Source: Streptantibioticus rubrisoli
GTDB lineage: Bacteria > Actinomycetota > Actinomycetes > Streptomycetales > Streptomycetaceae
Length of the DNA stretch: 64,000 nucleotides
Assembly: GCF_024436055.1 (NCBI RefSeq)
Contig: NZ_JANFNH010000014.1
Span: forward strand, 62,001-126,000
Reading direction: 5' to 3'
Made by a program: the position numbers and the translations under genes
In this document: positions 24,290 through 40,124 of the stretch, piece after piece
Layout of the letters: every line of letters starts with the position of its first letter
Numbering within the stretch: position 1 is the first letter of the stretch
Notes under the pieces: model-generated
The model's input: the letters and a program-made list of their open reading frames with translations, nothing else
The model's database searches: none
Told to the model about the DNA's origin: nothing

Positions 24290-24970
24290 CTACGACGTGA
24301 TGTCCGGTGTGCCGGGCACGAGTTGACCGGCGTGTAGGGTCCACGTGGTCACCGCGCTGCCCGACGGGCAGCACGTACTGTCGTTCGACCGGTACCAGTG
24401 CTCGTCGGCCACCACCTTGCCGGGGAGGAGGTGGACGTCCGCCAGCAGCGTGGTGTGCACCCCGTCCGAAGGCCGTTCCTGCGGGGTGACAGCGCCGAGC
24501 ACCACGAGGCGGCCCTGGTGCGAGGTGAAGACGATTGCGGCGAAGGCGAGTTGGCCAGCGGCGGTATCCCCTCCGTTGTCGCACTCCACGATGAGTGCGG
24601 CCTCCGGGCGGCCGTCGCCGTCGACGTCTCCGTACACGACGTCCGACTGCGACACCTGCACCCGTCCGAAACTGCCGGAGGCCGCGGTTGCCGTGCGACC
24701 GCTGAAGGCGACCAACCCGGGTATGTCACAGAACGCACCGGGAATCCGGACCGAGTTCCAGTCCACCTGGTGGAGGTCCGTCGGTGCCGGTCCCAGGTCG
24801 GTCGGCTCGGCTGTCGGCGTGGCAGACTCCGGTTGGTTCGGCGCCGCGGTGGCGGGCGCCGAGGACGGCTGGCTGATCCGCGGGGCGACCGAGGGGGCGC
24901 ACCCCGCCACGGGCAACGCCAGGCAGACGGCCGTGACGCACCAGCGTAAGCACGGCATGGACTTCCGCAC
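24290..24970 (-). CDS. Secreted lipoprotein with an FG-GAP/VCBS-like segment
   Basis: The 226-residue protein starts at GTG 24970, eight bases after AGGAGT. RWCVTAVCLALPVAGC is a lipoprotein signal with lipobox VAGC. A Pro/Ser/Thr/Ala linker follows. The domain VVYGDVDGDGRPEAALIVEC has a calcium-binding-like DxDxDG loop as in FG-GAP/VCBS repeats. Two cysteine pairs (FCDI, VECD, TCCP) may form disulfides. It lies downstream of the TIR-WD40 gene on the same strand, 74 bases away, and could be read with it or independently. Function is unknown. Confidence 0.72.
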   Translation of the reverse strand: MRKSMPCLRWCVTAVCLALPVAGCAPSVAPRISQPSSAPATAAPNQPESATPTAEPTDLGPAPTDLHQVDWNSVRIPGAFCDIPGLVAFSGRTATAASGSFGRVQVSQSDVVYGDVDGDGRPEAALIVECDNGGDTAAGQLAFAAIVFTSHQGRLVVLGAVTPQERPSDGVHTTLLADVHLLPGKVVADEHWYRSNDSTCCPSGSAVTTWTLHAGQLVPGTPDITS

Positions 24971-25044: not shown

Positions 25045-27870
25045 TCACCGGGCGCATGGTGGGTCGTAGGCCATCTGCGGCAGGTACTGTCGCCATTGGT
25101 CCGGGCTGATCACGGGCGACTGGGCGCACAGGCGTTGGAGGATGTCCGCGGTCCGGATGTCCCATATCTGCACCTTGCTCGCACCCGCAGCGGCCAGTTC
25201 GGCGCCGTTCGGGCTGAACGCCAGCGACGCCGCGACGTAGCTGTCCCCGGCTGCGAGCTTCGCCAGCACTGCCGGGTGGGTCGGGTCGCTCATGTCCCAC
25301 AGCAGCATGCTTCCGTCCGCGCCGCCACTGGCCGCGAGGGGTGCCCGGGGGTCGTACGCGATGCCGCCGACCTCTCCCACGTGGCCCGTGGGCGCCGCGA
25401 GTTGTCTTGGGTGGTCCACCTCGCGGACATCCCACGTGGCCACTGTCCCGCCCGTGCTCCCGGTGATGAGTGTGCGTCCGTCCGAGCTGAAGGCCAGGGC
25501 GGTGACCATGCTGCGAGCGGGTTTGAACGACGCCCGCAGCACGGGTTCGGCGGCCGAGCCGACGTCCCACAACTGCACCGCGCCGGCGTGGTCGCGGGTG
25601 GCGAGGATCCTTCCGTCACGCCGGAACGCCACGTCCTGCCCCCTGGACGTGGCGTCCTTCAAGGTGGCCAGCCGGGTCGGACGGTGGCGGTCGCGTACGT
25701 CCCACAACTGCACCGAGGTGCCTCCCACGGCGAGCAGCGAGCCTGCTGGGTTGAAGACCACCGACGCCGCGTAGGCACTCACCTGGTTGCCTGGTGTCAG
25801 GTCGTGCGGGTGTGCCGGGTCACGCACGTCCCACATCACCACCGGGCTGCCCGTGGCGATCGTGCCGCCATCCGGGCTGAACGAGACGGCTTGGCCGCCT
25901 TGGCCGAACATGCCGAGGGTCGTCAGGGAGCGCGGCCGTTGCCCTGAGGTGTCCCATAACGTCGTCGGAAACCCGGTGGCCAGGATGTCGCCGGTGCGGC
26001 TGAACGCGGGTACCGACGACGCGACCGAGGCGAGAGCGGTCTGCGCGGAGGACAGCGAGGGCCCGTCGACGTTCCACAGCCTCACCGAGCCGTTGTCCCC
26101 GCCGTCGGGGGCGCTCGGTGTCCCGTCTGTCGAAGCCGACGCGAGGGTCCTGTCGTCGCGGCTGAACGCCAACTGCGCTATCGGCGAGGTATGACCGGTC
26201 AGCCGGGCTCCGGGGGCTGGATGCAGAGGGTCCGAGGCGCTCCACAGTTGGATGTCTCCGCCGCTGGAGCCCACCGCGAGCGTCGCCCCGTCATGGGAGA
26301 AGGCGAGCGAGCAGACACTCAGCGGCTGGCCGCTGATGGACGCGTCCTGCCTGGCGTGGGCCGGATCGGTGACGTCCCACAGCCGCACCGCGTCGTCCTG
26401 CCCGCCGACCGCGAGCAGATGGCCGTCCGGGCTGAAGGCCAGCGCGTCGGGGGAGCCGGTCAACCGCGCGACGATGGCGGGGCGGCGCGGCTCGGACAGG
26501 TCCCACAGCCCTACGCTGTCGCGCTCGCCGCCCATCGCCAGCAGCCGCCCGTCGGGGCTGATCGACAGCCCGTCAACGGACTGCGCGGACTGGGCGAACA
26601 CGGCGATCCTGCGCGGCGTTCGCGGATGCGAGACGTCGAAGACCTCGGCAAGGGCGTCGTCCAGGCCCACCACCAGCGAGCGGGAGTCGGGGGTGAACGC
26701 CAGGCAGCGCACGCTTGAGCCACCGGTGTTCGCCGAAACGAGCAGCGTGGGCCGCGCCGCGGACGTCACGTCATAGAGCCGGAGGTCGCCCGCCCGGTCA
26801 CCCACGGCCAGCAGGCGGTCGTCGGGGCTGAATGCGAGACCAGGTGCGACACCGCGCGGGGCGGTCAGCCGTGCCAGCACCCGTGAGTCGGTGGAGTCGT
26901 AGAGCGTGACGCCGCGGCCGACAGCGGCGGCCAGCAGGTCTCGATGCGGGCTGAACGCCGCGCCGACGGGCACACCACCGGTTGCGATCACCCTGGGGAT
27001 GGCGGCGCTGCCGAGGAGCGCGCCCATGGCCTGGCCACTGGGGTCCAGACGGTAGGCCTCGACGAGTAGTTGTTTCGCCAGCCCGGGTTGGGTGTCCTCC
27101 ACCTCCTGCGCGCTGGCCACGAGTTGCCGTGAACTGGCCTGCAACTCCCGGTGGACGGCGGCGCCACGCTGCACCAGGGCGGTGACGCCGCCGGTGACGG
27201 CTGCCAGCAGCAACACGGTGAGCGCGGCGACGGTTCCGCGGACCCACCGCATGGTGCGGCGGCGCTGCCGGACGTGCTCACCGATCAGTTCCTCCTTGCT
27301 CATTCCGCGGATGGGGGCGGCGAAGTCCGCCACGCACTCGACCATCCGCGGATCGGCCCGGTCGACCTGTTCGGGCGCGTGCAGCCAGCGCAGGTCCACC
27401 CAGCGCGGCTGGTGGCCGAAGGCCCCGGACAGTTCCTTCTCCGGCAGCGCGTCGGTGGACTCCCAGTCGAACGTACCCAACTCCTCGTCCCACGCGAGAC
27501 GCCCGTCGGTCCACGCGATGAGGATCTTGTCGGCGCTCCGGTGCTCCAGCCACCACTGGATCTCCTTACGCACCCACACCGACCTGGCGGCCTGGGGCGA
27601 CGCCATGACGATGAGCCACCGGGCCTGTGCGAGCGCTCTTTCGATATCAGGCCAGAGCCCGGGGCTCGCGCTGAGGTTGGTCACGTCGCGGAATATCCGC
27701 AGCGTCCGCCAGCGGTACCAGGGACGGGCCATCGACTGCAACTCCGACTGGAACGCGGCGGCCACCGCGTTGTCCCAGGAGTGGCTGTAGGAGATGAAGG
27801 CGTCGTAGTGCTGTTCGGTGTCGGGCTCGCTCTTCACGGCCTCCTCTGACCGGGCTGCAGGATCCTTCAT
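25045..27870 (-). CDS. TIR domain - transmembrane - WD40 repeat protein
   Basis: The 941-residue protein has an N-terminal TIR domain: HYDAFISYSHSWDN at about residues 21-34, IFRDVTNLSASPGLWPDIER, and VMASPQAARSVWVRKEIQWW, where WxxxE supplies the glutamate (about residue 103) that is catalytic in TIR NADases. One membrane helix lies at about 211-233. From about 285 to the end there are roughly 13 WD40-type repeats (LAFSPDGHLLAVGG...VRLWDV), likely one or two propellers. It would sense through the propeller and signal or degrade NAD through TIR. ATG 27870 follows AAGGAA by 11 bases; GTG 27921 is the alternative, only 7 bases from the upstream stop. It is co-oriented with the upstream membrane protein gene. 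Confidence 0.87.
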   Translation of the reverse strand: MKDPAARSEEAVKSEPDTEQHYDAFISYSHSWDNAVAAAFQSELQSMARPWYRWRTLRIFRDVTNLSASPGLWPDIERALAQARWLIVMASPQAARSVWVRKEIQWWLEHRSADKILIAWTDGRLAWDEELGTFDWESTDALPEKELSGAFGHQPRWVDLRWLHAPEQVDRADPRMVECVADFAAPIRGMSKEELIGEHVRQRRRTMRWVRGTVAALTVLLLAAVTGGVTALVQRGAAVHRELQASSRQLVASAQEVEDTQPGLAKQLLVEAYRLDPSGQAMGALLGSAAIPRVIATGGVPVGAAFSPHRDLLAAAVGRGVTLYDSTDSRVLARLTAPRGVAPGLAFSPDDRLLAVGDRAGDLRLYDVTSAARPTLLVSANTGGSSVRCLAFTPDSRSLVVGLDDALAEVFDVSHPRTPRRIAVFAQSAQSVDGLSISPDGRLLAMGGERDSVGLWDLSEPRRPAIVARLTGSPDALAFSPDGHLLAVGGQDDAVRLWDVTDPAHARQDASISGQPLSVCSLAFSHDGATLAVGSSGGDIQLWSASDPLHPAPGARLTGHTSPIAQLAFSRDDRTLASASTDGTPSAPDGGDNGSVRLWNVDGPSLSSAQTALASVASSVPAFSRTGDILATGFPTTLWDTSGQRPRSLTTLGMFGQGGQAVSFSPDGGTIATGSPVVMWDVRDPAHPHDLTPGNQVSAYAASVVFNPAGSLLAVGGTSVQLWDVRDRHRPTRLATLKDATSRGQDVAFRRDGRILATRDHAGAVQLWDVGSAAEPVLRASFKPARSMVTALAFSSDGRTLITGSTGGTVATWDVREVDHPRQLAAPTGHVGEVGGIAYDPRAPLAASGGADGSMLLWDMSDPTHPAVLAKLAAGDSYVAASLAFSPNGAELAAAGASKVQIWDIRTADILQRLCAQSPVISPDQWRQYLPQMAYDPPCAR

Positions 27871-27927
27871 CTGCGCGGCGTTCCTTGTCTCGCGGGCCCG
27901 CCGCGGCACCGGGTGTGCCACTGCCGC

Positions 27928-28605
27928 CTAACCGATCACGGTTGCCGCGTCCAGTACGCCCGCGAGCCGGGCGAAGCTGCGCGCGTAGCCGCCCAAGTGC
28001 TGCTGCACGAGGCGCAGTTCGGCACGACAGTCGGCGTTCTGCGGCCACAGCGACTCCGACCGGCCGGGATGAGCCTGCTCGTAGGCGTGCAGGCGCGGAT
28101 GCCACGCGGACAGGAAGGGGCGCAGTTCGTGGTTGAGCATCGTGATGGCCAACTGCTCCACGGTGTGTCCGCCCAAGGTTCCGGTGGAGGGACGGCTCGC
28201 CTTCAGGGTCTCGCGAGTGGTGGAGAACAGCCCGTGTAGGGAGGTCAACGCCTCCCTGACGATGCCGTCGCCGTCCTCCAGCGGCTGGGTGGAGACCCGC
28301 GTCGCCGTCTCCACGAACAGGTGCCAGGCCACCCGCCGGGCGTCATCGTTGACGACGAAGGTGAACTCGCTCAACTGCGGTACGGTCACCTTGATTTCCG
28401 AAAGCCGCGCGGTGCTGCGGTAGTAGCGCAGCACGAGCATGGCGAGCGCACCGGCGACGCCACCCACGATCGCGAACAGTGCGCGGCCGGACAGGCAGGT
28501 GATGCCGAAGACGGCGAGCCCCGCGAGAGAACCGGCGGCAACGGACGTGACGAGCCGCACGGACCGGCCGTATGCCAGCCCCCTCACCGTCTGCTGCCAG
28601 GCCAC
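27928..28605 (-). CDS. Membrane protein paired with the TIR-WD40 protein
   Basis: The 225-residue protein starts at GTG 28605 with GGGGGG just before it (a TTG at 28617 is possible). Two membrane helices occur near residues 20-65 (LVTSVAAGSLAGLAVFGITC and ALFAIVGGVAGALAMLVLRY). A soluble C-terminal domain of about 150 residues follows, helical and rich in His and Arg, with LHGLFSTTRETLKASRP and AITMLNHELRPFLSAWHPRL. I recognise no family. Its stop precedes the longest possible TIR-WD40 start by 6 bases, so the pair is an operon and the proteins probably act together at the membrane. Confidence 0.68.
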   Translation of the reverse strand: MAWQQTVRGLAYGRSVRLVTSVAAGSLAGLAVFGITCLSGRALFAIVGGVAGALAMLVLRYYRSTARLSEIKVTVPQLSEFTFVVNDDARRVAWHLFVETATRVSTQPLEDGDGIVREALTSLHGLFSTTRETLKASRPSTGTLGGHTVEQLAITMLNHELRPFLSAWHPRLHAYEQAHPGRSESLWPQNADCRAELRLVQQHLGGYARSFARLAGVLDAATVIG

Positions 28606-28691
28606 CGCGCCCCCCAAGGTCTGGTCGTCCCCCGCTTGCCTGCTCCGAGTCGAATCTACTTGCGGATCAGGCCGTTCGCAGGGAAATCACC

Positions 28692-29246
28692 TCATCCGCA
28701 CCGTCCGGCGATGGGTGTCACCGAGGCGAGAACGAGTGCGGCGCTCGCCGCGCATCCGATGCGCCCGTCCCGTGCGGCAAGCGCCGCCTCGGCGGAAGGC
28801 ACTCGGCGCAGGCGCAGATCGGCCTCACCAGGGTCGCCGCCCGTCGGCGGACCGGGGATCAACTCCCGTGCAACCCACAGGTGGACCCGCAGCGGGCTCA
28901 GCCCGGGGAGCGGGTGGAGACTGCCGTGCGAGGTCCAACGCCCGCCGTGGAATCCGGTCTCCTCGCACAACTCCCGCTCGGCGGCGGCACGATGGTCCGC
29001 GTCCGCGGGATCGACCGAACCTCCCGGGAGCTGCCATGTGGTCCCGACCAAGTAGTGGCACTGCTCGATGAGGAGCAGATCGTCACCCGCGAAGGCGGCC
29101 ACCCGCACGAGGTCGGGCGCCCCCACCCAGTCGTAGGTGTCCGCCTGCCCGTCTGGGCGGAGGACCTCGTCCCGCCACACCGACAGACGCGGCGTCCGGC
29201 ACAGCACGTCCCGGCTGCGCCGCGTCCACGGTTCCCTGCGCTGCAT
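28692..29246 (-). CDS. NUDIX hydrolase
   Basis: The 184-residue protein contains the Nudix core LVGTTWQLPGGSVDP...RAAAERELCEETGFHGG. The REUxEExG half of the signature is intact, while the G-x5-E half carries an Asp one residue off register. Upstream, LSVWRDEVLRPDGQADTYDW and VAAFAGDDLLLIEQCHYLVG resemble ADP-ribose/NDP-sugar-type Nudix enzymes. ATG 29246 is the first ATG giving a Nudix-length protein; longer frames are Arg-rich without family support. Substrate is unknown; ADP-ribose would fit the TIR neighbour, but that is inference. Confidence 0.8.
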   Translation of the reverse strand: MQRREPWTRRSRDVLCRTPRLSVWRDEVLRPDGQADTYDWVGAPDLVRVAAFAGDDLLLIEQCHYLVGTTWQLPGGSVDPADADHRAAAERELCEETGFHGGRWTSHGSLHPLPGLSPLRVHLWVARELIPGPPTGGDPGEADLRLRRVPSAEAALAARDGRIGCAASAALVLASVTPIAGRCG

Positions 29247-29560
29247 GTCTGCACGGTAGTGCACGCGACGCCACCACCGTCGACCACGGTTGCCGCGGTC
29301 CGCACGACCACTGACCGACCGCACCAGAGGCATACGGCGCGAGTTGGTGACCAGGGCGTACGGAGAGTGGGGCCGCCACCCTCGCCGTATGCGGCGGACG
29401 GTGGGGTGCGCGGTCCGGGCCAACACGGCTGCGCTTAGCTTACGTTGGGCTTGCCAAGGCGTTTTGCCCTTGGACGGTACGAAGTTGAGGATGTACGCCT
29501 GAGACGTTCACGGGTGCTTGCTGGGAGCCAACCCGCTTAGTCCACGAAACGAGAGAAGGC
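29247..29560. other. Divergent intergenic region with two inverted repeats
   Basis: Bases 29356-29392 form an imperfect hairpin with arms of about 15 bp (GCGTACGGaGAGTGG against the complementary CCAC-CTC-CCGTA-GC). CCAAGG (29454-29459) and CCTTGG (29468-29473) form a short operator-like palindrome about 90 bp upstream of the secreted propeller gene. No coding sequence was recognised. Confidence 0.4.
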
Positions 29561-31300: not shown

Positions 31301-31527
31301 AGGAAGGCGGCCCAGGCTGTGGCCGAGCGATCCGGTGCGGGTGTCTACGCCGCTGAAGCGGTGACTCCGCGGCCAACTCATACCACAGCCTGGCGAGTAA
31401 CCCGCACCATTGCCAGCGGCGGGACCAACACCGCGGTTTCCCGGCGCAGCGCGGCGGTGTGTATCCATACTGGGCTCCGACGCCTCTCCAGGTGGCCCGC
31501 GCACCAGCGTCGCGAAGGGGGATCCCC

Positions 31528-32301
31528 ATGACCACGGCCCTGCACAGACCATCCCGCATACCGGCGCCGAGTGATCCCTGGCCAGCGTCCAGCGTGTTGG
31601 GCGCCCTCAGCCCCGGCGCCCGGGAACGGTTCATCACGCTCGGTCGGCTGGTTCACTTCCACGGTGGTGAACGGCTTTTGCGCGAGGGGGAGTTGGGCAC
31701 CGAGGTGTATCTGCTGCTCAAGGGCTGGTTCAAGGTACTGGCCGTGATGGACGACGCCCGCGAGGCCCTGCTCGCCGTACGAGCCGGCGGCGACATCGTC
31801 GGCGAACTGGCCTGTTTCGACGCACAGCCCCGTTCGGCGACCGTCCTTGCGGTTGGGCCGGGCGCCGCCCGGCTGATCAGCCGTCAGGAGTTCCTGGGCT
31901 TCCTGGGGGCCGAGGACGAGGTGACGCAGGCCGTCATGCGCGCGGTTGGCGGGAAGCTGCGCTGGGCGACACGCCGCCGCCAGGACTTCGGCGGCAGCGG
32001 CGTGCAGACCCGGGTCGCCCGCGTCCTGGCCGAGTTGGCCCGCTCCTACGGCCGCCAAGACGGCTCTTCCATCGCCATCAGCGTGTCCCTCAGCCAGCCG
32101 GAGTTGGCCACGCTGGTCGGTTCCTCCGAGCCCAGTGTGCATCGAGTGCTCCGCTCCTTGCGCCAGCGGCGAATCATCGAGACCGGGTACCGCCGGATCC
32201 TCATCCGGGACGTACCCGGGCTCGGCCGGATCGCCGGCGCCGACCTGACCGCGCTCATCTCAACGTCTCCGCCAGCACCAGCCACGCTCCCGCCGCGATG
32301 A
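31528..32301 (+). CDS. Crp/Fnr-family transcriptional regulator
   Basis: The 257-residue protein starts at ATG 31528 after GAAGGGGG. Residues about 25-150 are a cyclic-nucleotide-binding fold (VHFHGGERLLREGELGTEVY, LLLKGWFKVLAVMD). IVGELACFDAQPRSATVLA keeps the G-E-L and R-S-A residues that contact the ribose and phosphate of cAMP in E. coli CRP. About 165-235 is the winged helix (LSQPELATLVGSSEPSVHRV). The last 47 bases overlap the 3' end of the convergent PycTM-like gene. A ligand made by the neighbouring cyclase-like protein is possible. Confidence 0.85.
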   Translation: MTTALHRPSRIPAPSDPWPASSVLGALSPGARERFITLGRLVHFHGGERLLREGELGTEVYLLLKGWFKVLAVMDDAREALLAVRAGGDIVGELACFDAQPRSATVLAVGPGAARLISRQEFLGFLGAEDEVTQAVMRAVGGKLRWATRRRQDFGGSGVQTRVARVLAELARSYGRQDGSSIAISVSLSQPELATLVGSSEPSVHRVLRSLRQRRIIETGYRRILIRDVPGLGRIAGADLTALISTSPPAPATLPPR

Positions 32302-32743
32302 CGGTCGCCGCGACCCAGATGACAGCGCGTGCGGTGTAGGAGTTCTTCAGCTCCGCGATCCGGGCGATGGCGTGCGCGGTGGCCCAGGCGTCGTGAACCA
32401 GCCGGTCCGGCCGCGTGTCCAGGTGGTCGGAGGCGTCCAGCGAAAAGTGGTTGGGCGCGCCCGGGTTGGCCGCGCGCGGACGGATCACCTGGATGAGCAG
32501 GTAACCGGACACCACGAAGGTCACGGCGTACGCGAGGCCCACCATCCAGAACAGGACGGCGCTGGGGCAGGTGGGCGCCGGGGCGCCCGCCTGCCCGACC
32601 TGGGTGGCCACGACCGCCGCGAGTCCGATGTGCACGGTCACCAGGGTCCCGGCCTTCGCGTCGGCCTGCTGTGTCACCTGCTGGAACGAGGCCATGGCGG
32701 CCATTGCCCCCACCAGTTCCTCGGCTGGCTGCCGTTCGCTCAT
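32255..32743 (-). CDS. PycTM-like (DUF5706) membrane protein, candidate effector
   Basis: The 162-residue protein has the order typical of Pycsar effector PycTM domains: an N-terminal helix FQQVTQQADAKAGTLVTVHI leading into a first membrane helix, a second one (VLFWMVGLAYAVTFVVSGYL), and a C-terminal RIAELKNSYTARAVIW helix with a final membrane span (VAATVIAAGAWLVLA). In Pycsar systems such proteins damage the membrane when a cyclic pyrimidine nucleotide is made. ATG 32743 overlaps the upstream stop by one base (TGATG), so it is translationally coupled to the cyclase-like gene. No other start is reasonable. It ends the operon. Confidence 0.72.
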   Translation of the reverse strand: MSERQPAEELVGAMAAMASFQQVTQQADAKAGTLVTVHIGLAAVVATQVGQAGAPAPTCPSAVLFWMVGLAYAVTFVVSGYLLIQVIRPRAANPGAPNHFSLDASDHLDTRPDRLVHDAWATAHAIARIAELKNSYTARAVIWVAATVIAAGAWLVLAETLR

Positions 32744-33921
32744 CAGCCGTGGCCCTGGAAGTGCACGGCATGGTGGCCCCCGTCGCCAGGCTCCCCATGC
32801 CCGTCCTGCCCGTCCCACCGCACGCTCGCGTCGGTCTGCCCGTCCGGAGCGTGGACGGCGTCGTACGGGGTGGCGTGATGGTACGGGTCCTGCGCGTCGT
32901 GGTGGTACGGATCGCCGTGATGCCGGTCCTCAAGGACGGATCCAGCATGGGCGTCGTGGTGCCCGTCGCTCGGATGGTGGCCGTCCGCGTGCTGCGCGTG
33001 GTGCTCAGCCTCTGTGTGGTGAACGGCCGCATGGTGGCCGCCGTGCTGCCCGTCGCCCACGTGGTGCGTGTCCGAACCGGGGTGGGGACCGCCGACGTGC
33101 GGGTCGTGCGCGTCCGGCCGGGCGTACACCACCCCCGTGTCGTCGAAGTCGGCGGACACCGCCCCGGTCGGCGTGCCCTGCTGGGCTCCAGGCAGCAGCC
33201 ACTCCCGCAGTACCGCGCTGTGTGCGAGCGCGGTGGCAGCCAGGTGGGCCGCGCCCAGGGCGGGCACGACGAACTCCTTCGTGGCCGTCCTGGCGCGGGA
33301 GTGCCCCCAGATCACCGGTTCCGGCCCGAGATCGGCGGCCGGGGCGGACCGGGGAGCGTGCAGCCATGCGGTGGCCGAGAAGTCCTTCGCCGGTGTGACG
33401 ATCTCGGCGCGGTGGAACTGGGTGGCGGACAACCCGTGGGACTGCGGGACCACCGCGTCCCGGTACAGGTCGTCCGGCACGGCGAGCGCAAGGTCGCAGT
33501 CGGCGTTGCGCTCCAGCTCCTGGCGGACCGCCTCGGACTCCACCAGGCGGCTGACCAGTACCACGCAGCCGCCGACGTAGCCCCGGTCCGCGCGCGACAG
33601 CGAGCCCTGGCCGAGCGCGGCCCGCATCCGTAGCCGACCGAAGGCCCCCGGCGTCTGGTTGACCTGGTAGAGCCCGTCGCGCAGGCCGAGGACCAGCGCG
33701 GGCACCGCCCGTACGATGTCGACGCGGGCCGGGAAGACCACCAACTGGCCGTCGCCCTGCAACTGTTGTTGCACCCGGACCCGCATCACGCGGGCCCGGC
33801 GCAGGGCGTGCTCCACGACCAGACGGAGCCGGTACTGGGCGTCCGTCTGCTCGTCGTAGGTGTGGCGGCTGTAGTGGCGCAGGTCCACGGCCAGCAGCAG
33901 CCGCCTGCTGTAGCGGGCCAT
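32743..33921 (-). CDS. Class III nucleotide cyclase-like protein with a histidine-rich tail
   Basis: The 392-residue protein begins MARYSRRLLLAVDLRHYSRH, where Asp in AVDL and Asp in QLQGDGQLVVFP sit where the two metal-binding aspartates of class III cyclases lie. RLRMRAALGQGSLSRADRGY and VGGCVVLVSRLVESEAVRQE match the later cyclase strands. A middle region of about 80 residues has no clear family. The last 123 residues hold 30 histidines with Asp and Gly, a likely metal-binding tail. Start ATG 33921 overlaps the upstream stop (TGATG); GTG 33924 is the alternative. It lies between dynamin-like GTPases and a PycTM-like gene, fitting a signal-making role. Base specificity is unknown. Confidence 0.68.
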   Translation of the reverse strand: MARYSRRLLLAVDLRHYSRHTYDEQTDAQYRLRLVVEHALRRARVMRVRVQQQLQGDGQLVVFPARVDIVRAVPALVLGLRDGLYQVNQTPGAFGRLRMRAALGQGSLSRADRGYVGGCVVLVSRLVESEAVRQELERNADCDLALAVPDDLYRDAVVPQSHGLSATQFHRAEIVTPAKDFSATAWLHAPRSAPAADLGPEPVIWGHSRARTATKEFVVPALGAAHLAATALAHSAVLREWLLPGAQQGTPTGAVSADFDDTGVVYARPDAHDPHVGGPHPGSDTHHVGDGQHGGHHAAVHHTEAEHHAQHADGHHPSDGHHDAHAGSVLEDRHHGDPYHHDAQDPYHHATPYDAVHAPDGQTDASVRWDGQDGHGEPGDGGHHAVHFQGHG

Positions 33922-35873
33922 CACATCATCGCCAGCTCGTCCACGATGTCGCCGATGCTCTCACCGGTCCGGCGCAACTCGTCCTCCAGCTGCTTGAGTT
34001 CGGACCGGCGCTGTTCGACGGCCTCGACGCCCTGCTCACGGGCGGTGCGGGCGCTGTCCACGGCGCGGGTGAGCTCGGTCATGCGATCGTCGAGTCCGCT
34101 GGACACCGCCGTGGCGAACGGCTCCATGGTGGCGTCGGCGAACGCCTGGGCGGCCTCGCGGGCCTGCGTGGGCGCCTCCATGGTGATCCGCGTGGCCATC
34201 TCCCGGCCGATGGCCTCGCGCATCCGCTGCTCCAGCCTGCTGCCGGACTGACCGCCCTGCCACACCCCGTGGATGACGGTGGCGGCGATCAGCGTCGGCA
34301 GGCCGAACGGCGTGAGCAGCCACGCGAGCGCGATGACGACGGCCATCGGCATGGTGCGCAGCGCCTCCCGGGCGCCGAAACGGGCGCCCACCATGCCGCC
34401 CGCCACGCCTCCGAAGACGAAGCCGCCGACACCGGCGAGGAACCGCTGGAGTGGCGCCTCCTCCTGGGACTCACCGATGGAGGCGGCGTCCTGCGGGTCG
34501 ACCAGTTGAACCCGCAGTTGGTCCAACCGCGCCTCGAAGCTCGCCAGTTCGCCGTCGAGCTGTCCGGCGATCCGCCCCAGGTCCTGGTGGACCACCGGCT
34601 CCAGCGAGGTCCTCACCCACTCGGCGACCTTCTCCTCGACCCTCTTGGCGATGCCTTCGGCGATCTCCCTGGCCACCTTCTCGGCCCGTTCCTTCACCTT
34701 GATCGGGTTCATGCCCAGCTTGGTGGTGATCTGCACCTCGGCGGCGAACACCGGTACGCGGTCGGCGAGGGTGGCGAGGTAGCCGCCCAGCAGGGTCTCC
34801 ACCCGGTCCTGGAGCATCCTGGTCTGGTTGCGGGTGTCGGAGGTGATCTGCCGGGCCTGCTCCCGTAGCGCGCGCAGCGGCTCCTGGGCCGCCTGCCAGC
34901 GGCTTTCGAGGTCCTCGGTACGGGTGTCGAGCAGTGCCAGCTCGTACGGGACGCTGCGGGCCAGGTCACTTGTGACACCGCGCAACGCGCGGGCGGGGGA
35001 GAGCAGTTTGACCTTGTGCCGCTCCGTGGACAGGTAGTGCTCCAGGGCCTCTTCGAGCTCGGCCACGCCGGACCGCCGGAAACCCTCGGCGTCCCCCGCC
35101 TCCCTGGCGCGCAGCGCGCTCCGGCCGTCAACGAAGTGGAACCGGTCGCGGTCGCGGTCGTCGCCGCGCAGATCGGTGATGCGACGCCGTGCGGAGTGCG
35201 TCACGTCATCGCGATCCCGTGGGTCGATCGCGTCGAAGTAGGTGAAGACGAAGAAGGGGTCATGGGCGTCGAGGTAGGAGGTGAGGAAGGAGGACTCGCT
35301 GATGCTCATGGGGGCGATGGCGTGCTGCAGGAAGATCACCGCGTCGGCCTTGACAAGGTGGGCGAGGGTGATCTCGTCGCGCGTGGCGTGTTCGTTGAGG
35401 CCCGGCGAGTCGATGAGCACCACGTTGTGCCGACACAGTTCCAGCGGCCAGAACACCTCGGCCTTGACGTACGGGTTGCGCTCGTCGCGGGCCTGGTTGT
35501 TGACGGTGATGAGGTCGGTCAGCCGGGCCGGGTCCACGCTCTCCGGGGCGGCGGCGTCCTCCCGCCACAGCTGTGCCGAGCGGGTGTCGCCGTAGCGGAC
35601 CTCGGTGATGACCGCGGTGGCGGGCGTGGCCTTGACCGGCAACACCTGCGCGCCGAGCAGGGCGTTGACGAACGTGGACTTGCCGCGCTTGAAGTCGCCG
35701 ACCACCATCACGTGGAAGGCGTCGTTGTCCAGCCGCTCCAGCAGGGTGGTGACGGTCCCCGCGGCCCCCTCGTTGCCGATCCTGGAGGCTATCTCGCCCA
35801 CCTGGCGTCCGATGCCGGTCAGCCGGGAGCGCTGTCCTGCGGCGGCCTCGTAGCCGCCCTGTTCCGTGCTCAT
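33921..35873 (-). CDS. Dynamin-family GTPase, third of three
   Basis: The 650-residue protein has a dynamin-type G domain: P-loop VVGDFKRGKST at about 57-67, switch threonines in KATPATAVITEV, G3 LIDSPG at 153-158, and VFTYFD in the G4 position (not the usual T/NKxD). Long helical stalk segments follow (ARALRGVTSDLARSVPYELA onward). A glycine-rich hydrophobic hairpin (GGFVFGGVAGGMVGA and VVIALAWLLTPFGLP) near 490-545 should insert in membrane. ATG 35873 has AGGAG 11 bases upstream. It starts 24 bases after the second GTPase and its stop overlaps the cyclase-like start. Bacterial dynamins remodel or protect membranes, and some act in phage resistance. Confidence 0.87.
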   Translation of the reverse strand: MSTEQGGYEAAAGQRSRLTGIGRQVGEIASRIGNEGAAGTVTTLLERLDNDAFHVMVVGDFKRGKSTFVNALLGAQVLPVKATPATAVITEVRYGDTRSAQLWREDAAAPESVDPARLTDLITVNNQARDERNPYVKAEVFWPLELCRHNVVLIDSPGLNEHATRDEITLAHLVKADAVIFLQHAIAPMSISESSFLTSYLDAHDPFFVFTYFDAIDPRDRDDVTHSARRRITDLRGDDRDRDRFHFVDGRSALRAREAGDAEGFRRSGVAELEEALEHYLSTERHKVKLLSPARALRGVTSDLARSVPYELALLDTRTEDLESRWQAAQEPLRALREQARQITSDTRNQTRMLQDRVETLLGGYLATLADRVPVFAAEVQITTKLGMNPIKVKERAEKVAREIAEGIAKRVEEKVAEWVRTSLEPVVHQDLGRIAGQLDGELASFEARLDQLRVQLVDPQDAASIGESQEEAPLQRFLAGVGGFVFGGVAGGMVGARFGAREALRTMPMAVVIALAWLLTPFGLPTLIAATVIHGVWQGGQSGSRLEQRMREAIGREMATRITMEAPTQAREAAQAFADATMEPFATAVSSGLDDRMTELTRAVDSARTAREQGVEAVEQRRSELKQLEDELRRTGESIGDIVDELAMM

Positions 35874-35897
35874 GGTCTGGGTCTCCTGTCTGTTCCC

Positions 35898-37883
35898 TCA
35901 GCTGTGCATGGCGGTGCGGATGCGGGTGGCCAGGCTCGCGGCGGAGCGCGCCAGGTCCTCCCAGTCGGTGCCGGGCCGCTCGGCCGAAGCCGCGGCCGGA
36001 TCGGCTGCTTGCTGCCAGGCCCGGCGCGAGCGGTCCAGCCGCTCGAACAACTCGCCGTGCACTTCGGCGATCACCTCCGCGGTCTGCCGCTGGAACGCGG
36101 CGATGCTCTCGCCCACAACCCGTACCAGCACCGCGTGGACCTCACGGCGCTGCTCCTCGGTGGCGGAGCGGATGGACGCCTCGGCGATCAGGCCGCCGAG
36201 GATGCTGAAACCCGCGCCGTAGATCATGGGCATGGACGCCGAACGGGCGGCCGCGACCAGGTAGCCGACGATGGCCCCGCCCTGTGCTCCGAGCCTGTTC
36301 AGCAGCCGGGTCCGGCCCAGGTCGGAGATCTCGCCGGAGATCAACGGCTCCGCGGTCAGACGCAGCTCGCTGGGGGCGGAACCCGCCGGGGCGTCCGGCA
36401 GCAGCGCGGCGATCTCGCGGTCCAGCCAGCGGGCGTCGTCGGCCAGCGCGGGCAGCGCGATGGTGCGCTCGCACTCCCCGGCAATCAACGCCAGTTCGCG
36501 GCGCAGCCGGACGGGGAGGTCGCGTTGCCACCACAGGCGCGGGTCCTGGGCCCGTTCCAGTTCCCAGCGCAGCCGCTCGACGAGGTCGTCGCGACGTTTG
36601 TGGATCTCGTCCCGCGCCGTTGCGCCTACCGAGAGTTGACGATGGGTCAGGTCGATGCGGAGCTGTTCCCAGCGGCGTTCGCCGGCTTCGGCTGCCGACC
36701 GGGCGGCCGCCCGGCGCTCCTCGATCTCGGTCTCGGACAGCCGCCCGGCGGCAAGGGCGGTCGCTGCGAAGCGGCTCAACGCCGCGCATTGATCGGCGAC
36801 TTGGGCGGCGATCCGCCGGTCCCGCCACAGGCCGCGCTGGTCGGTGGCCGCGAACTCCTCGACGGCCGCGCGCACCACGGACGGTCCGGCGGCTCCGGGG
36901 GCCGGTGCGGGCAGGACCCGGATGGCGGACAGATCGGCCAGCCGCTCCTGGATGTCGAGCATGGCCGCTTCGCGTTCGGCCGGTTCAAGCAGGTCGAGCA
37001 TGGTGACCACGACCGCCGCGAAGACCACGTGCCGGCACAGCACCTCCCCTTCCAGCAGGTGGCGCTCGGTGACGCCCATCGGCGACAGCGCGGAGACCAC
37101 GAACAGCGCCGCGTCGCTGCCAGCCAGAGCCTTCCTGACCTGTTCGAACTGTTCCGCGCTGCCGGAGTTGACTCCGGGGGTGTCCAGGAGTTCCGCGCCC
37201 AGCGACCGGAGCCACTCGCCGGCCGCCGTGAGGGTCACGACAGGAGCGCCGGGTGTGGGGGCGCCGGACCCGGCGGGGTCGGCCGTACCGGGCCGGTCGG
37301 TGGTCCCCGCGACGGTGTCCGGCTCGTCCGGAGCGAAGGCGAGACCGTGCCAGGCGTCCGGGGCGTCGGGCCGCCGGGTCTCGCGGCGGCCGTCCGGCCA
37401 CTCCACGGTGAGCGCGTCCTCGGCACCGGCACGCACGGCGACCTGGGTCCGCGTGACCGGCAAAGGCCCGGTCGGCAGCAGGTCCCGGCCCAGCAGCGTG
37501 TTGAGCAGCGTGGACTTGCCCCGGTTGAACTCCCCGACGACCGCGATGCGGAAGGTCGGCCGACCGCGCCCGGCCGACAGCTCGTCGAGGACGGTGACCA
37601 CCTCCTCCAACCCGGCCCGCTCGGCGAGCGCGCGCGCCTCGCGCAGCCACCCGGATGTCTCGGCGGTGACGTCCGGAACGTGGTCGACCAGGGGCACGGC
37701 GCAGGACCCTGCGGGGACGCCCGCGGCGGGCGGTATCGCCGCAGCGTCGGCTGCGGAGGCGTCTTCGCCCGGAACGGCGCCTGCCGGGTCGGGCGGGGGC
37801 GCGGCCGCGCCATGGCGCTCGGGGGGCGCGGCGGCGTCCGCGCGGTCCGATGCCACTGTTGGGGTGTCCTGTTCGGCGTCCAC
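35898..37883 (-). CDS. Dynamin-family GTPase, second of three
   Basis: The 661-residue protein opens with a disordered Pro/Ala-rich region of about 70 residues. The P-loop is VVGEFNRGKST at about 115-125, G3 is LLDTPG at 232-237, and VVTMLD occupies the G4 position at about 292-297. Helical stalk regions follow, and a hydrophobic paddle (GAIVGYLVAAARSASMPMIY, GAGFSILGGLIAEA) lies near 545-585. GTG 37883 is chosen because AAAGGAG stands eight bases before it; GTG 37892 would overlap the upstream stop with no room for a ribosome site. The different G4 and sequence from its neighbours suggest old duplication and specialisation, perhaps hetero-oligomers. Confidence 0.86.
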   Translation of the reverse strand: MDAEQDTPTVASDRADAAAPPERHGAAAPPPDPAGAVPGEDASAADAAAIPPAAGVPAGSCAVPLVDHVPDVTAETSGWLREARALAERAGLEEVVTVLDELSAGRGRPTFRIAVVGEFNRGKSTLLNTLLGRDLLPTGPLPVTRTQVAVRAGAEDALTVEWPDGRRETRRPDAPDAWHGLAFAPDEPDTVAGTTDRPGTADPAGSGAPTPGAPVVTLTAAGEWLRSLGAELLDTPGVNSGSAEQFEQVRKALAGSDAALFVVSALSPMGVTERHLLEGEVLCRHVVFAAVVVTMLDLLEPAEREAAMLDIQERLADLSAIRVLPAPAPGAAGPSVVRAAVEEFAATDQRGLWRDRRIAAQVADQCAALSRFAATALAAGRLSETEIEERRAAARSAAEAGERRWEQLRIDLTHRQLSVGATARDEIHKRRDDLVERLRWELERAQDPRLWWQRDLPVRLRRELALIAGECERTIALPALADDARWLDREIAALLPDAPAGSAPSELRLTAEPLISGEISDLGRTRLLNRLGAQGGAIVGYLVAAARSASMPMIYGAGFSILGGLIAEASIRSATEEQRREVHAVLVRVVGESIAAFQRQTAEVIAEVHGELFERLDRSRRAWQQAADPAAASAERPGTDWEDLARSAASLATRIRTAMHS

Positions 37884-37888
37884 GGCTG

Positions 37889-39844
37889 TCACTCCTTTGC
37901 TGAAGCCGCGATGCGGCTGGTGTTGTGGCGCAGCGAGGCGACGTGGGTGCGGCGGCGGCGCGCCTCGACCGCGATCCGCTCGGTGTCGGCGATCTCCTCT
38001 GCGAGGGCGGCCTGCCGACGGGCGTTGGCGGCGTTGAGCCGGGCGATCTCCTCACTCCACTCCGTGAGGTACTGGGCGCGCAGCCCGGCAATGCTCTCGG
38101 CGAGTTCCGCGGCCACCTGGCCCACGGATTCGGTGACGGACGCGGCCACGGTCTGCCGGGCCTCGGCGACGATCGGCCGGGCCTGGGCGAGGAACTGCTC
38201 GCGCGCCGTGTCCGGGCCGCGCTTGCCGATGATCGCGCCCAGGACTCCGCCGACGAGCGTGCCGACCCCGGGCAGCACCATGCTGCCGGCCAGCGCTCCG
38301 GCCGCCGCCCCGCCGCCGGTGCGCCAGGTGTCGCTGGTGACCAGCCGCGCGCCCAGCTGGGCCAGCGCCTGGTCGGTGGTGGACAGGTCCGGGGCGGGCA
38401 GCGCCGCCGCGGACAGCACGGCGGGCGCCACGGTCCGCTGCTCGCCGGCCAGCCCGGCCAACGCGCTGTACTGCGAGCCGAATTCCCGTGCGAGCTCCTC
38501 CGCGCCAACGGTCAGCAGCCGGTCCGCACGGGCCGCGGCGCACTCCACGGTGCGCTCTGCCTCCCGGCGCAGCCGCTCGCGCACCATCCGGGAGACGGCG
38601 GTGGCGGCCTCGTTCGGCCGTGCGATCCGGTCACCGGCGACGGCGTCGGTGACCTCGCCTTCCAGCGAGGTGAGCGCGGCGTCGAGTTCGAGCAGCAGGG
38701 ACGCCCGATCGAGGCCGCGGTCGGCACGTTGCAGCGCGCCTGCCGCCCACGCGTCGAGGAACGCGGGCAGGTCGGGCAGCGACAGGCGGCCCAACTCCTC
38801 TTGCACGGTGCCGAGTTGGGACCGCTGGTCGGCGGCCGTCTCCTCGACCGCGGCCAGCAGTGCGGACAGCAGCCCCAGAACGGTGGCCGCCACGGCGGAC
38901 CGCCGCCGCTCGGCGGCCAGGCTGGCGATGCGCGCCTCCACCTCCAAGAACCGCTCCACGGCGGCGTCCGCGCCGGATGCGTTCCGCGCGGCGCCGCCCG
39001 CCCCGACGCGCGTGGCGGCGCCGACGGTCAGCGCGCCCAGCACGCGGCCCGGCGCGCAGGGCAGCACGACGGGATCGGCGACGCCGAGGCCGCGCAGCCG
39101 CTCCTCGACGAGCCCGAGGACCTCACCGAGCCCCTCGGCGTCCAACAGGTCCGTCTTGGTGAGGACGAAGGCACACCGGTCGAGGTGGTCGTGGAGCGGA
39201 CCGACCAGGAAGTCGACGAGCGTCATCGACATCGCGGCCGGCGCGGGAACGACGACCAACGCCAGGTCGGCCTGCCCCACCGCGGCCTCGGCCAGTTCGC
39301 GGTGGCCGCGGTCCAGCACGGAGAACCCCGGGGTGTCGAGCAGCACGACGTCCTCACCCAGCAGCCGGGCGGGCTGCCACACCTCCAGCCGCAGCACCTC
39401 GTCGGCCAGAGAGGTCGTCAGCACCCTTCGCAGGACCTCCTCAAGGGTGGCCGAGACCCCGGGCGCGGACGGCCCGGCCCACTGGGCAAACGACCCCGAG
39501 CGCCAGGTGACCTCGTCCCGGTCGGCCAGGGTCACCACGATCTTCTCGGCGCCCTCGCCCCGGCGCAGCACCGTGGTGGTGCGTGTCGTCACGTCGTTCG
39601 ACGACGGCAGCAGCCGACGCCGCAGGAACGCGTTCAGCAGCGTGCTCTTGCCGCTGGACGCTTCCCCGAACACTGCTATCCGCAGCTGCGGGTCGTCGCC
39701 CCGGGCCTGCACTGTGCGGAGCTGCTTCCCGAGCTCCGCCCTGCGTCCGGACGGCAGTCGACGGTCGCCGAGTACCGCGTCGATCCACTCCAGGTGCCCG
39801 GCGACCGCCGGTCCCCCCACATCCACCGCTCCGTGAGCTGTCAC
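37889..39844 (-). CDS. Dynamin-family GTPase, first of three
   Basis: The 651-residue protein has a full G domain: P-loop VFGEASSGKST at about 58-68, RTTTVL switch I, G3 LLDTPGF at 168-174, and a canonical G4 LTKTD at 228-232. The stalk is helical. A glycine-zipper hydrophobic segment (AAAGALAGSMVLPGVGTLVG, GVLGAIIGKR) near 555-590 is a likely membrane paddle. The last 70 residues are a heptad-rich, Arg-rich helix (IARLNAANARRQAALAEEIA). Start is uncertain: GTG 39844 lies about 7 bases after a TACGCT -10-like hexamer and could be leaderless; ATG 39883 lies inside a palindrome. Only four bases separate its stop region from the next start. Confidence 0.82.
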   Translation of the reverse strand: MTAHGAVDVGGPAVAGHLEWIDAVLGDRRLPSGRRAELGKQLRTVQARGDDPQLRIAVFGEASSGKSTLLNAFLRRRLLPSSNDVTTRTTTVLRRGEGAEKIVVTLADRDEVTWRSGSFAQWAGPSAPGVSATLEEVLRRVLTTSLADEVLRLEVWQPARLLGEDVVLLDTPGFSVLDRGHRELAEAAVGQADLALVVVPAPAAMSMTLVDFLVGPLHDHLDRCAFVLTKTDLLDAEGLGEVLGLVEERLRGLGVADPVVLPCAPGRVLGALTVGAATRVGAGGAARNASGADAAVERFLEVEARIASLAAERRRSAVAATVLGLLSALLAAVEETAADQRSQLGTVQEELGRLSLPDLPAFLDAWAAGALQRADRGLDRASLLLELDAALTSLEGEVTDAVAGDRIARPNEAATAVSRMVRERLRREAERTVECAAARADRLLTVGAEELAREFGSQYSALAGLAGEQRTVAPAVLSAAALPAPDLSTTDQALAQLGARLVTSDTWRTGGGAAAGALAGSMVLPGVGTLVGGVLGAIIGKRGPDTAREQFLAQARPIVAEARQTVAASVTESVGQVAAELAESIAGLRAQYLTEWSEEIARLNAANARRQAALAEEIADTERIAVEARRRRTHVASLRHNTSRIAASAKE

Positions 39845-39876
39845 CCCGTCAGCGTAGGAAGGACCGGGCGTTCGGT

Positions 39877-39896
39877 ATCTCATCAGATGATGGGAT
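39877..39896. promoter_or_regulatory. Imperfect palindrome at the dynamin operon promoter
   Basis: ATCtCATCA-GA-TGATGgGAT (39877-39896) pairs at 8 of 10 positions. It lies just upstream of a possible -10 TACGCT (minus strand, about 39857-39852) for the five-gene operon, so it could be an operator. The P450 gene diverges 228 bp to the right. Confidence 0.4.
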
Positions 39897-40124
39897 CCGC
39901 CTGCTTTTTTGTGATCCACTCGGATTTTGGTCAGCCCAGCCGCCGCCCACGCCGCCACCGCGATCGGCCAAGCCGCAACCTGCGCCATCACCACCACCCG
40001 CTAAGCCGTCGGAGGGAAACGCGGTACGAAACGGTCTTCATGGGCGTGGGCGGGGTGAGCGGTCGAGCTAACCATGGAAGTGGTGTTTGGTCCGGGGTGA
40101 TCGCTACCGTTACGGGGTGCTCGG

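Follow-up and report, generated by a model that had tools for sequence, protein, structure and literature searches.

The window, by which we mean the whole 64,000-nucleotide stretch of DNA that was analysed, holds four genes that lie head to tail on the minus strand: a Nudix hydrolase, a small membrane protein (here called the partner), a TIR-TM-WD40 protein and a secreted lipoprotein (Table 1). The original prediction, made from the letters and open reading frames, had named the first three, all of which were found, and had missed the downstream lipoprotein that belongs to the conserved block. The identical four-gene order was found on a plasmid of Streptomyces cynarae, with identities of 70% for the Nudix hydrolase, 73% for the partner, 64% for the TIR-WD40 protein and 59% for the lipoprotein. 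On that plasmid the partner stop is overlapped by the TIR start, and in the window six bases (27922-27927) separate the partner gene from the longest TIR start. The TIR gene may begin at this start, which is that of the longest open reading frame, or at an internal ATG (M18), and comparison with S. cynarae places the probable Nudix start at M61, about 29246. In four loci the partner has a Nudix gene no more than 100 bp away, a spacing shown by S. longwoodensis and locus L088; in S. longwoodensis an IS5 element is located between the partner side and the TIR gene. In locus L079 a Nudix gene is present farther from the partner, and in L079, L081 and L093 a lipoprotein gene follows the TIR gene. 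Elsewhere in the window, a multi-span protein of 187 aa that matches no Pfam family is followed by long open reading frames (32255-39997, minus strand). The first of these, 33921-35873, encodes a dynamin-type GTPase (Dynamin_N 1.9e-31, PADLOC LeoA 3e-19), the next two, 35898-37892 and 37889-39997, may belong to the cluster as well, and a Crp-type regulator is encoded beside it (31459-32301, plus strand).

Table 1. Genes and features of the four-gene locus, with positions in the window and residue numbers of the encoded proteins.
Feature	Position	Strand	Remarks
Nudix hydrolase	28692-29426	-	longest ORF; PF00293 5.8e-11
Partner gene	27928-28617	-	229 aa; two N-terminal membrane helices, about residues 18-69
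Conserved partner domain	27952-28410	-	residues 70-222; beta hairpin and four helices
TIR-TM-WD40 gene	25045-27921	-	958 aa from longest start
TIR domain			residues about 38-180 of TIR-TM-WD40 protein
WxxxE motif, W116-E120	27562-27576	-	E120 is the predicted catalytic glutamate
Single membrane span	27175-27231	-	residues about 231-249; from hydropathy
14 WD-type repeats			residues about 315-925 of TIR-TM-WD40 protein
C-terminal cysteine pair C932...C956	25054-25128	-	conserved in family
Lipoprotein, secreted	24290-24958	-	222 aa; lipobox VAGC; downstream of TIR gene

In the TIR-TM-WD40 protein, residues 42-137 matched the Pfam profiles ThsB_TIR (E 1.9e-7) and TIR_2 (1.6e-6), both beyond the Pfam cut-offs. 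The TIR motif is spelled S114-V-W116-V-R-K-E120, and W116 and E120 are invariant in 38 of 38 aligned relatives, which bears out the catalytic WxxxE glutamate originally proposed. The motif also aligns with its equivalent in the solved TIR proteins 3h16 and 4lzp, within an overall match that is weak. Fold and conserved glutamate together point to a catalytic TIR domain of the NADase type, which would cleave NAD. The single span expected after the TIR domain was recovered as well; it is followed by a short helical stretch and then by the WD40 region (PF00400 1.7e-49). About 13 repeats had been proposed here, and the repeats stand with their number raised to 14, the count of blade-end motifs between residues 340 and 919 at a spacing of about 45 residues. 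Going by motif counting alone, we read them as two seven-bladed propellers. A full-length AlphaFold2 model made from the single sequence reached a pLDDT of 38 and was set aside.

The TIR domain is probably located inside the cell and the WD40 propellers outside, as suggested by the sequence evidence that follows. Six Lys/Arg residues precede the span of the window protein and three follow it, and among 36 TIR-TM-WD40 proteins the means were 5.4 in the 20 residues before the span and 3.2 in the 20 residues after it. A C-terminal cysteine pair about 25 residues apart was found in nearly all complete actinomycete TIR-TM-WD40 proteins, including those with a strongly diverged WD40 sequence, and these are often the sole cysteines C-terminal to the span. 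A paralogue in the same genome (G000 C25; cf. L019 7164-11282) shares the TM-WD40 chassis and the C-terminal cysteine tail, with HTH- and NTPase-like regions replacing the TIR domain; since its N-terminus resembles an HTH plus NTPase protein, this part would be cytosolic. The architecture given in the original prediction stands; that the propellers probably lie at the surface had not been part of it.

The partner gene encodes the two-helix membrane protein that had been predicted six bases upstream of the longest TIR start, and both helices were confirmed. What is conserved in the family, however, is the soluble domain of about 150 residues, and many relatives have no span. The window partner gave no significant family match in Pfam, NCBIfam or PADLOC, and profile searches with Pfam and NCBIfam found no macro, SIR2 or SLOG domain in it. 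Against SLATT, EAD, Death-like and TRADD-N there was no Pfam match at E 0.1-0.5, some of these families possibly having no models. With low to moderate confidence (mean pLDDT 57.5; about 80 for helices 3-4), AlphaFold2 predicts a beta hairpin and a four-helix bundle for the soluble domain, which would be cytosolic. Fold searches with the model returned generic four-helix bundles only, with a best Foldseek E of 0.14 and Z up to 9.4, a value in the chance range for helical bundles. Across 83 partner sequences, residues S126, W172, R107, P167, R135, H173, R198, N162 and E180 are 93-100% conserved. The conserved arginines sit on different helices and are joined by a His and a Trp, which suggests a putative anionic-ligand site. 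Assignment as a HEPN ribonuclease (R166-x6-H173) was considered and set aside, R166 being just 84% conserved and the next residue Pro.

Partner relatives were detected in 55 of the 393 Streptomyces species sampled and in other actinomycete genera, including Spongiactinospora. Genome and plasmid searches added Calothrix, Photobacterium, Vibrio, Ruegeria, Mesorhizobium, Sinorhizobium, Rhizobium and Aureispira; the alignment searches by class and phylum scored eight candidates per genome, and their counts are lower bounds. The 68 free-standing copies come mostly from Actinomycetota, the others from Cyanobacteriota, Pseudomonadota and Bacteroidota. On viral contigs one locus carried a partner relative and in annotated phages none was found, so the partner is no typical phage gene.

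With profiles or seed sequences, 71 loci were scanned for TIR, SLOG, Nudix, WD40, NB-ARC and partner, and the set was later extended. A TIR gene was found within 1 kb of 51 of the 68 free-standing partner genes, in loci that are mostly from Streptomyces and not independent of one another, and a TIR or SLOG gene within 3 kb of 58. Two further TIR-type neighbours (L034, L090) were detected by other means. The scan detected no TIR or SLOG neighbour in the remaining eight loci (L018, L033, L116, L117, L118, L120, L121, L123), which include contig ends and transposase neighbours. Several of the TIR seeds were taken from partner loci, and Pfam confirms TIR in the tested representatives. At about 2.6 TIR_2 matches per Streptomyces genome (105 in 41 genomes), a TIR gene is expected within 1 kb of a random gene in about 0.1% of cases, and the linkage would still stand out if TIR genes had been undercounted tenfold. 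Loci from Cyanobacteriota, Pseudomonadota and Bacteroidota show the same association. Conserved pairing of the two genes, put forward originally as something to look for in other genomes, is clearly present and far wider than was guessed. In the reverse direction it is looser: about half of 18 full-length TIR-TM matches from 199 Streptomyces genomes had a partner within 3 kb. The identities of TIR and partner were weakly correlated (r 0.23, Mantel p 0.03), and we do not claim that the two strictly co-evolve. A tree built quickly from 77 partner domains has long branches and was read only for its broad groups, in which the copies from the window and S. cynarae fall within a membrane-anchored clade and TIR-TM-WD40 pairing appears in several separate parts. 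This scatter means that the modules shuffle.

The output modules joined to the partner domain are interchangeable, and five architectures were distinguished. The domain carries two membrane helices beside TIR-TM-WD40 (the window and about a dozen other loci), TIR-NB-ARC or SLOG cluster 2 genes; it has no membrane helices in copies beside TIR-NB-ARC or TIR-TM-WD40; it is located C-terminally on TIR-NB-ARC proteins, usually with a free copy adjacent; it is N-terminal on a patatin phospholipase with six spans, in rhizobial islands that hold multiple TIR genes; and it has one membrane helix where it follows ThsB-type TIR genes. A single partner copy per several TIR genes is found in the rhizobial and Aureispira islands. 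In the islands on rhizobial plasmids (L043 1-10327, L044 3142-12590, L045 2949-28369), a single partner-patatin gene is surrounded by several TIR genes; the islands also carry Nmad2 proteins and a KGGVGR-type ATPase-TIR fusion, to which L045 adds a SLOG-type gene, and they look like multi-sensor TIR systems. On an Aureispira plasmid (L042 2277-7438), a CRISPR cas1-cas2 locus adjoins a run of TIR genes that includes a TIR-SLOG fusion (PF18163 8e-55) and closes with a partner of one span. SLOG cluster 2 is a nucleotide-processing or -sensing fold, and in L020 (7965-9538), L092 (4898-7086) and L094 (5213-7062) the partner is paired with a gene of this cluster in loci where no nearby TIR gene was detected, which looks as though SLOG took the place of TIR. 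The partner relative of L090 (6098-13499) overlaps a TIR gene of FxsC type (NF040588 2.9e-17, under the cut-off), in a neighbourhood that resembles an FxSxx-COOH peptide cluster.

Based on these results, we read the four genes as a NAD-signalling module that resembles Thoeris, senses through a surface receptor and has the partner as receiver, and we put the probability of this reading at about 0.5. The propellers, perhaps with the lipoprotein, would detect something outside the membrane, upon which the cytosolic TIR domains would cluster and cleave NAD to ADP-ribose or a derivative. The cytosolic four-helix domain of the partner would bind this product, and its two membrane helices would act on the membrane after receipt of the signal, while the Nudix hydrolase would clear ADP-ribose-type products and so limit or reset the signal. 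Defence is the likely purpose of the module, possibly against phages. The reading is based on the four-gene order shared with S. cynarae, the close TIR-partner linkage, the topology evidence and the type of the Nudix hydrolase. The nearest solved relatives of the latter are ADP-ribose pyrophosphatases (M. tuberculosis ADPR pyrophosphatase 1mk1 at 2.9e-9), a type that it resembles. An earlier suggestion that it could process ADP-ribose gains from these relatives and from the position near the partner in four loci, with the substrate itself still a candidate by similarity.

The role of receiver is proposed foremost because one partner-effector copy accompanies several TIR genes in rhizobia and Aureispira. 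The reading as a whole is further favoured by the joining of the partner domain to varied outputs (two spans, one span, six-span patatin phospholipase), by SLOG cluster 2 as an alternative neighbour and by the conserved residues R107, R135, W172, H173 and R198. Many partner relatives have no membrane helix, and membrane attack therefore cannot be the general output. The TIR-TM proteins that have no partner nearby, about half in the 199 Streptomyces genomes, count against the reading, as do the weak correlation of TIR and partner identities, the lack of partner copies in annotated phages and the C-terminal position of the domain on TIR-NB-ARC proteins; this last fits an adaptor equally well.

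Such an adaptor or scaffold would aid the assembly or membrane recruitment of TIR proteins with no small-molecule sensing, by contact either with these proteins or with another partner copy; we consider this, in either form, somewhat unlikely. Its strongest argument is the fusion to TIR-NB-ARC, usually beside a free copy, which matches the logic reported for effector-associated domains (PMC7159879), and the predicted helical bundle fold also suits it. However, most TIR proteins next to a partner have no copy of the domain, including TIR-TM-WD40 proteins and those of the multi-TIR islands in rhizobia, which excludes homotypic binding as a general mechanism. More doubtful is a module that serves cell-surface or developmental signalling in filamentous actinomycetes rather than defence. 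It would account for a probable surface sensor with a lipoprotein, for window neighbours that are regulators and secreted enzymes with no obvious defence island among them, and for the one partner relative that adjoins an FxsC-type TIR in an FxSxx-COOH-like cluster, but the patchy spread among Streptomyces species, the plasmid-borne copies in several phyla and the multi-TIR islands suit mobile defence better. TIR enzymes are toxic when active, and the tight coupling of TIR and partner genes in the window, L029, L080, L083 and L084 would suit a partner that acts as a brake and keeps the enzyme inactive, in the manner of an antitoxin or an autoinhibitor, yet this is very improbable given the patatin phospholipase fusion, which fits an output or adaptor role better, the divergent transcription of the two genes in L016, L035 and others, and the existence of partnerless TIR-TM genes.

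For many bacterial TIR proteins we know of no signal receiver. The partner domain accompanies TIR-TM-WD40, TIR-NB-ARC and ThsB-type proteins and occurs fused to a phospholipase, which makes it a direct candidate receiver for TIR signals and opens many unassigned TIR systems to testing. Should the propellers lie outside, a bacterial transmembrane TIR receptor could sense attack at the surface. In the open-access literature, of which our coverage was incomplete, no description of TIR-TM-WD40 receptors or of the partner domain was found, and the sequence evidence suggests that the operon and the partner family are an undescribed TIR signalling module. Tentatively, they could combine a surface immune receptor of Toll-like layout with an unnamed, cross-phyla TIR receiver domain of varied membrane outputs, forming a branch of TIR immunity beside Thoeris; that these outputs act on the membrane, as pore helices or as patatin phospholipase, is equally tentative.

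In Thoeris, a single ThsA works with one ThsB or with several (PMC11204291), and the related loci found here similarly hold several TIR genes per partner copy. Thoeris with a TM-macro ThsA (PMC11204291) likewise sets a TIR enzyme beside a small protein with N-terminal membrane helices and a C-terminal soluble part. The window TIR is of ThsB type by its PF08937 match, a profile that is not confined to Thoeris. In contrast to ThsA, with its SIR2-SLOG or TM-macro domains, the partner has a predicted unnamed helical domain, and SLOG occurs only as a neighbour in other loci; the TIR protein here, moreover, itself spans the membrane and bears two putative propellers, and if the topology is right its sensor faces the surface, whereas the TIR sensors described for Thoeris are cytosolic (PMC11204291). 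Thoeris type III (NCBIfam ThcA, ThcB4) shares the multi-TIR layout, and the TIR-SLOG protein of Aureispira is similar to ThcB4 at a level (2.1e-15) that falls far short of the curated cut-off. No ThcA was found above the cut-off in ten partner-bearing genomes or records, that of the window included, and as the ThsA domains were not found either, the module is not filed as Thoeris. Similar to the two-span SLATT effectors (PMC7159879), the partner links two membrane helices to predicted nucleotide-signal enzymes, and as in effector-associated domains (PMC7159879) one domain is copied on two proteins of a locus; the partner has no Pfam match at the thresholds used. With animal Toll-like receptors the window protein would share, if the topology is right, a sensor outside, one span and a TIR domain inside. 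The order is reversed, however, with TIR at the N-terminus, and it has WD40 propellers instead of leucine-rich repeats and an invariant catalytic glutamate; the likeness is one of layout, and we do not propose that the two architectures share an origin.
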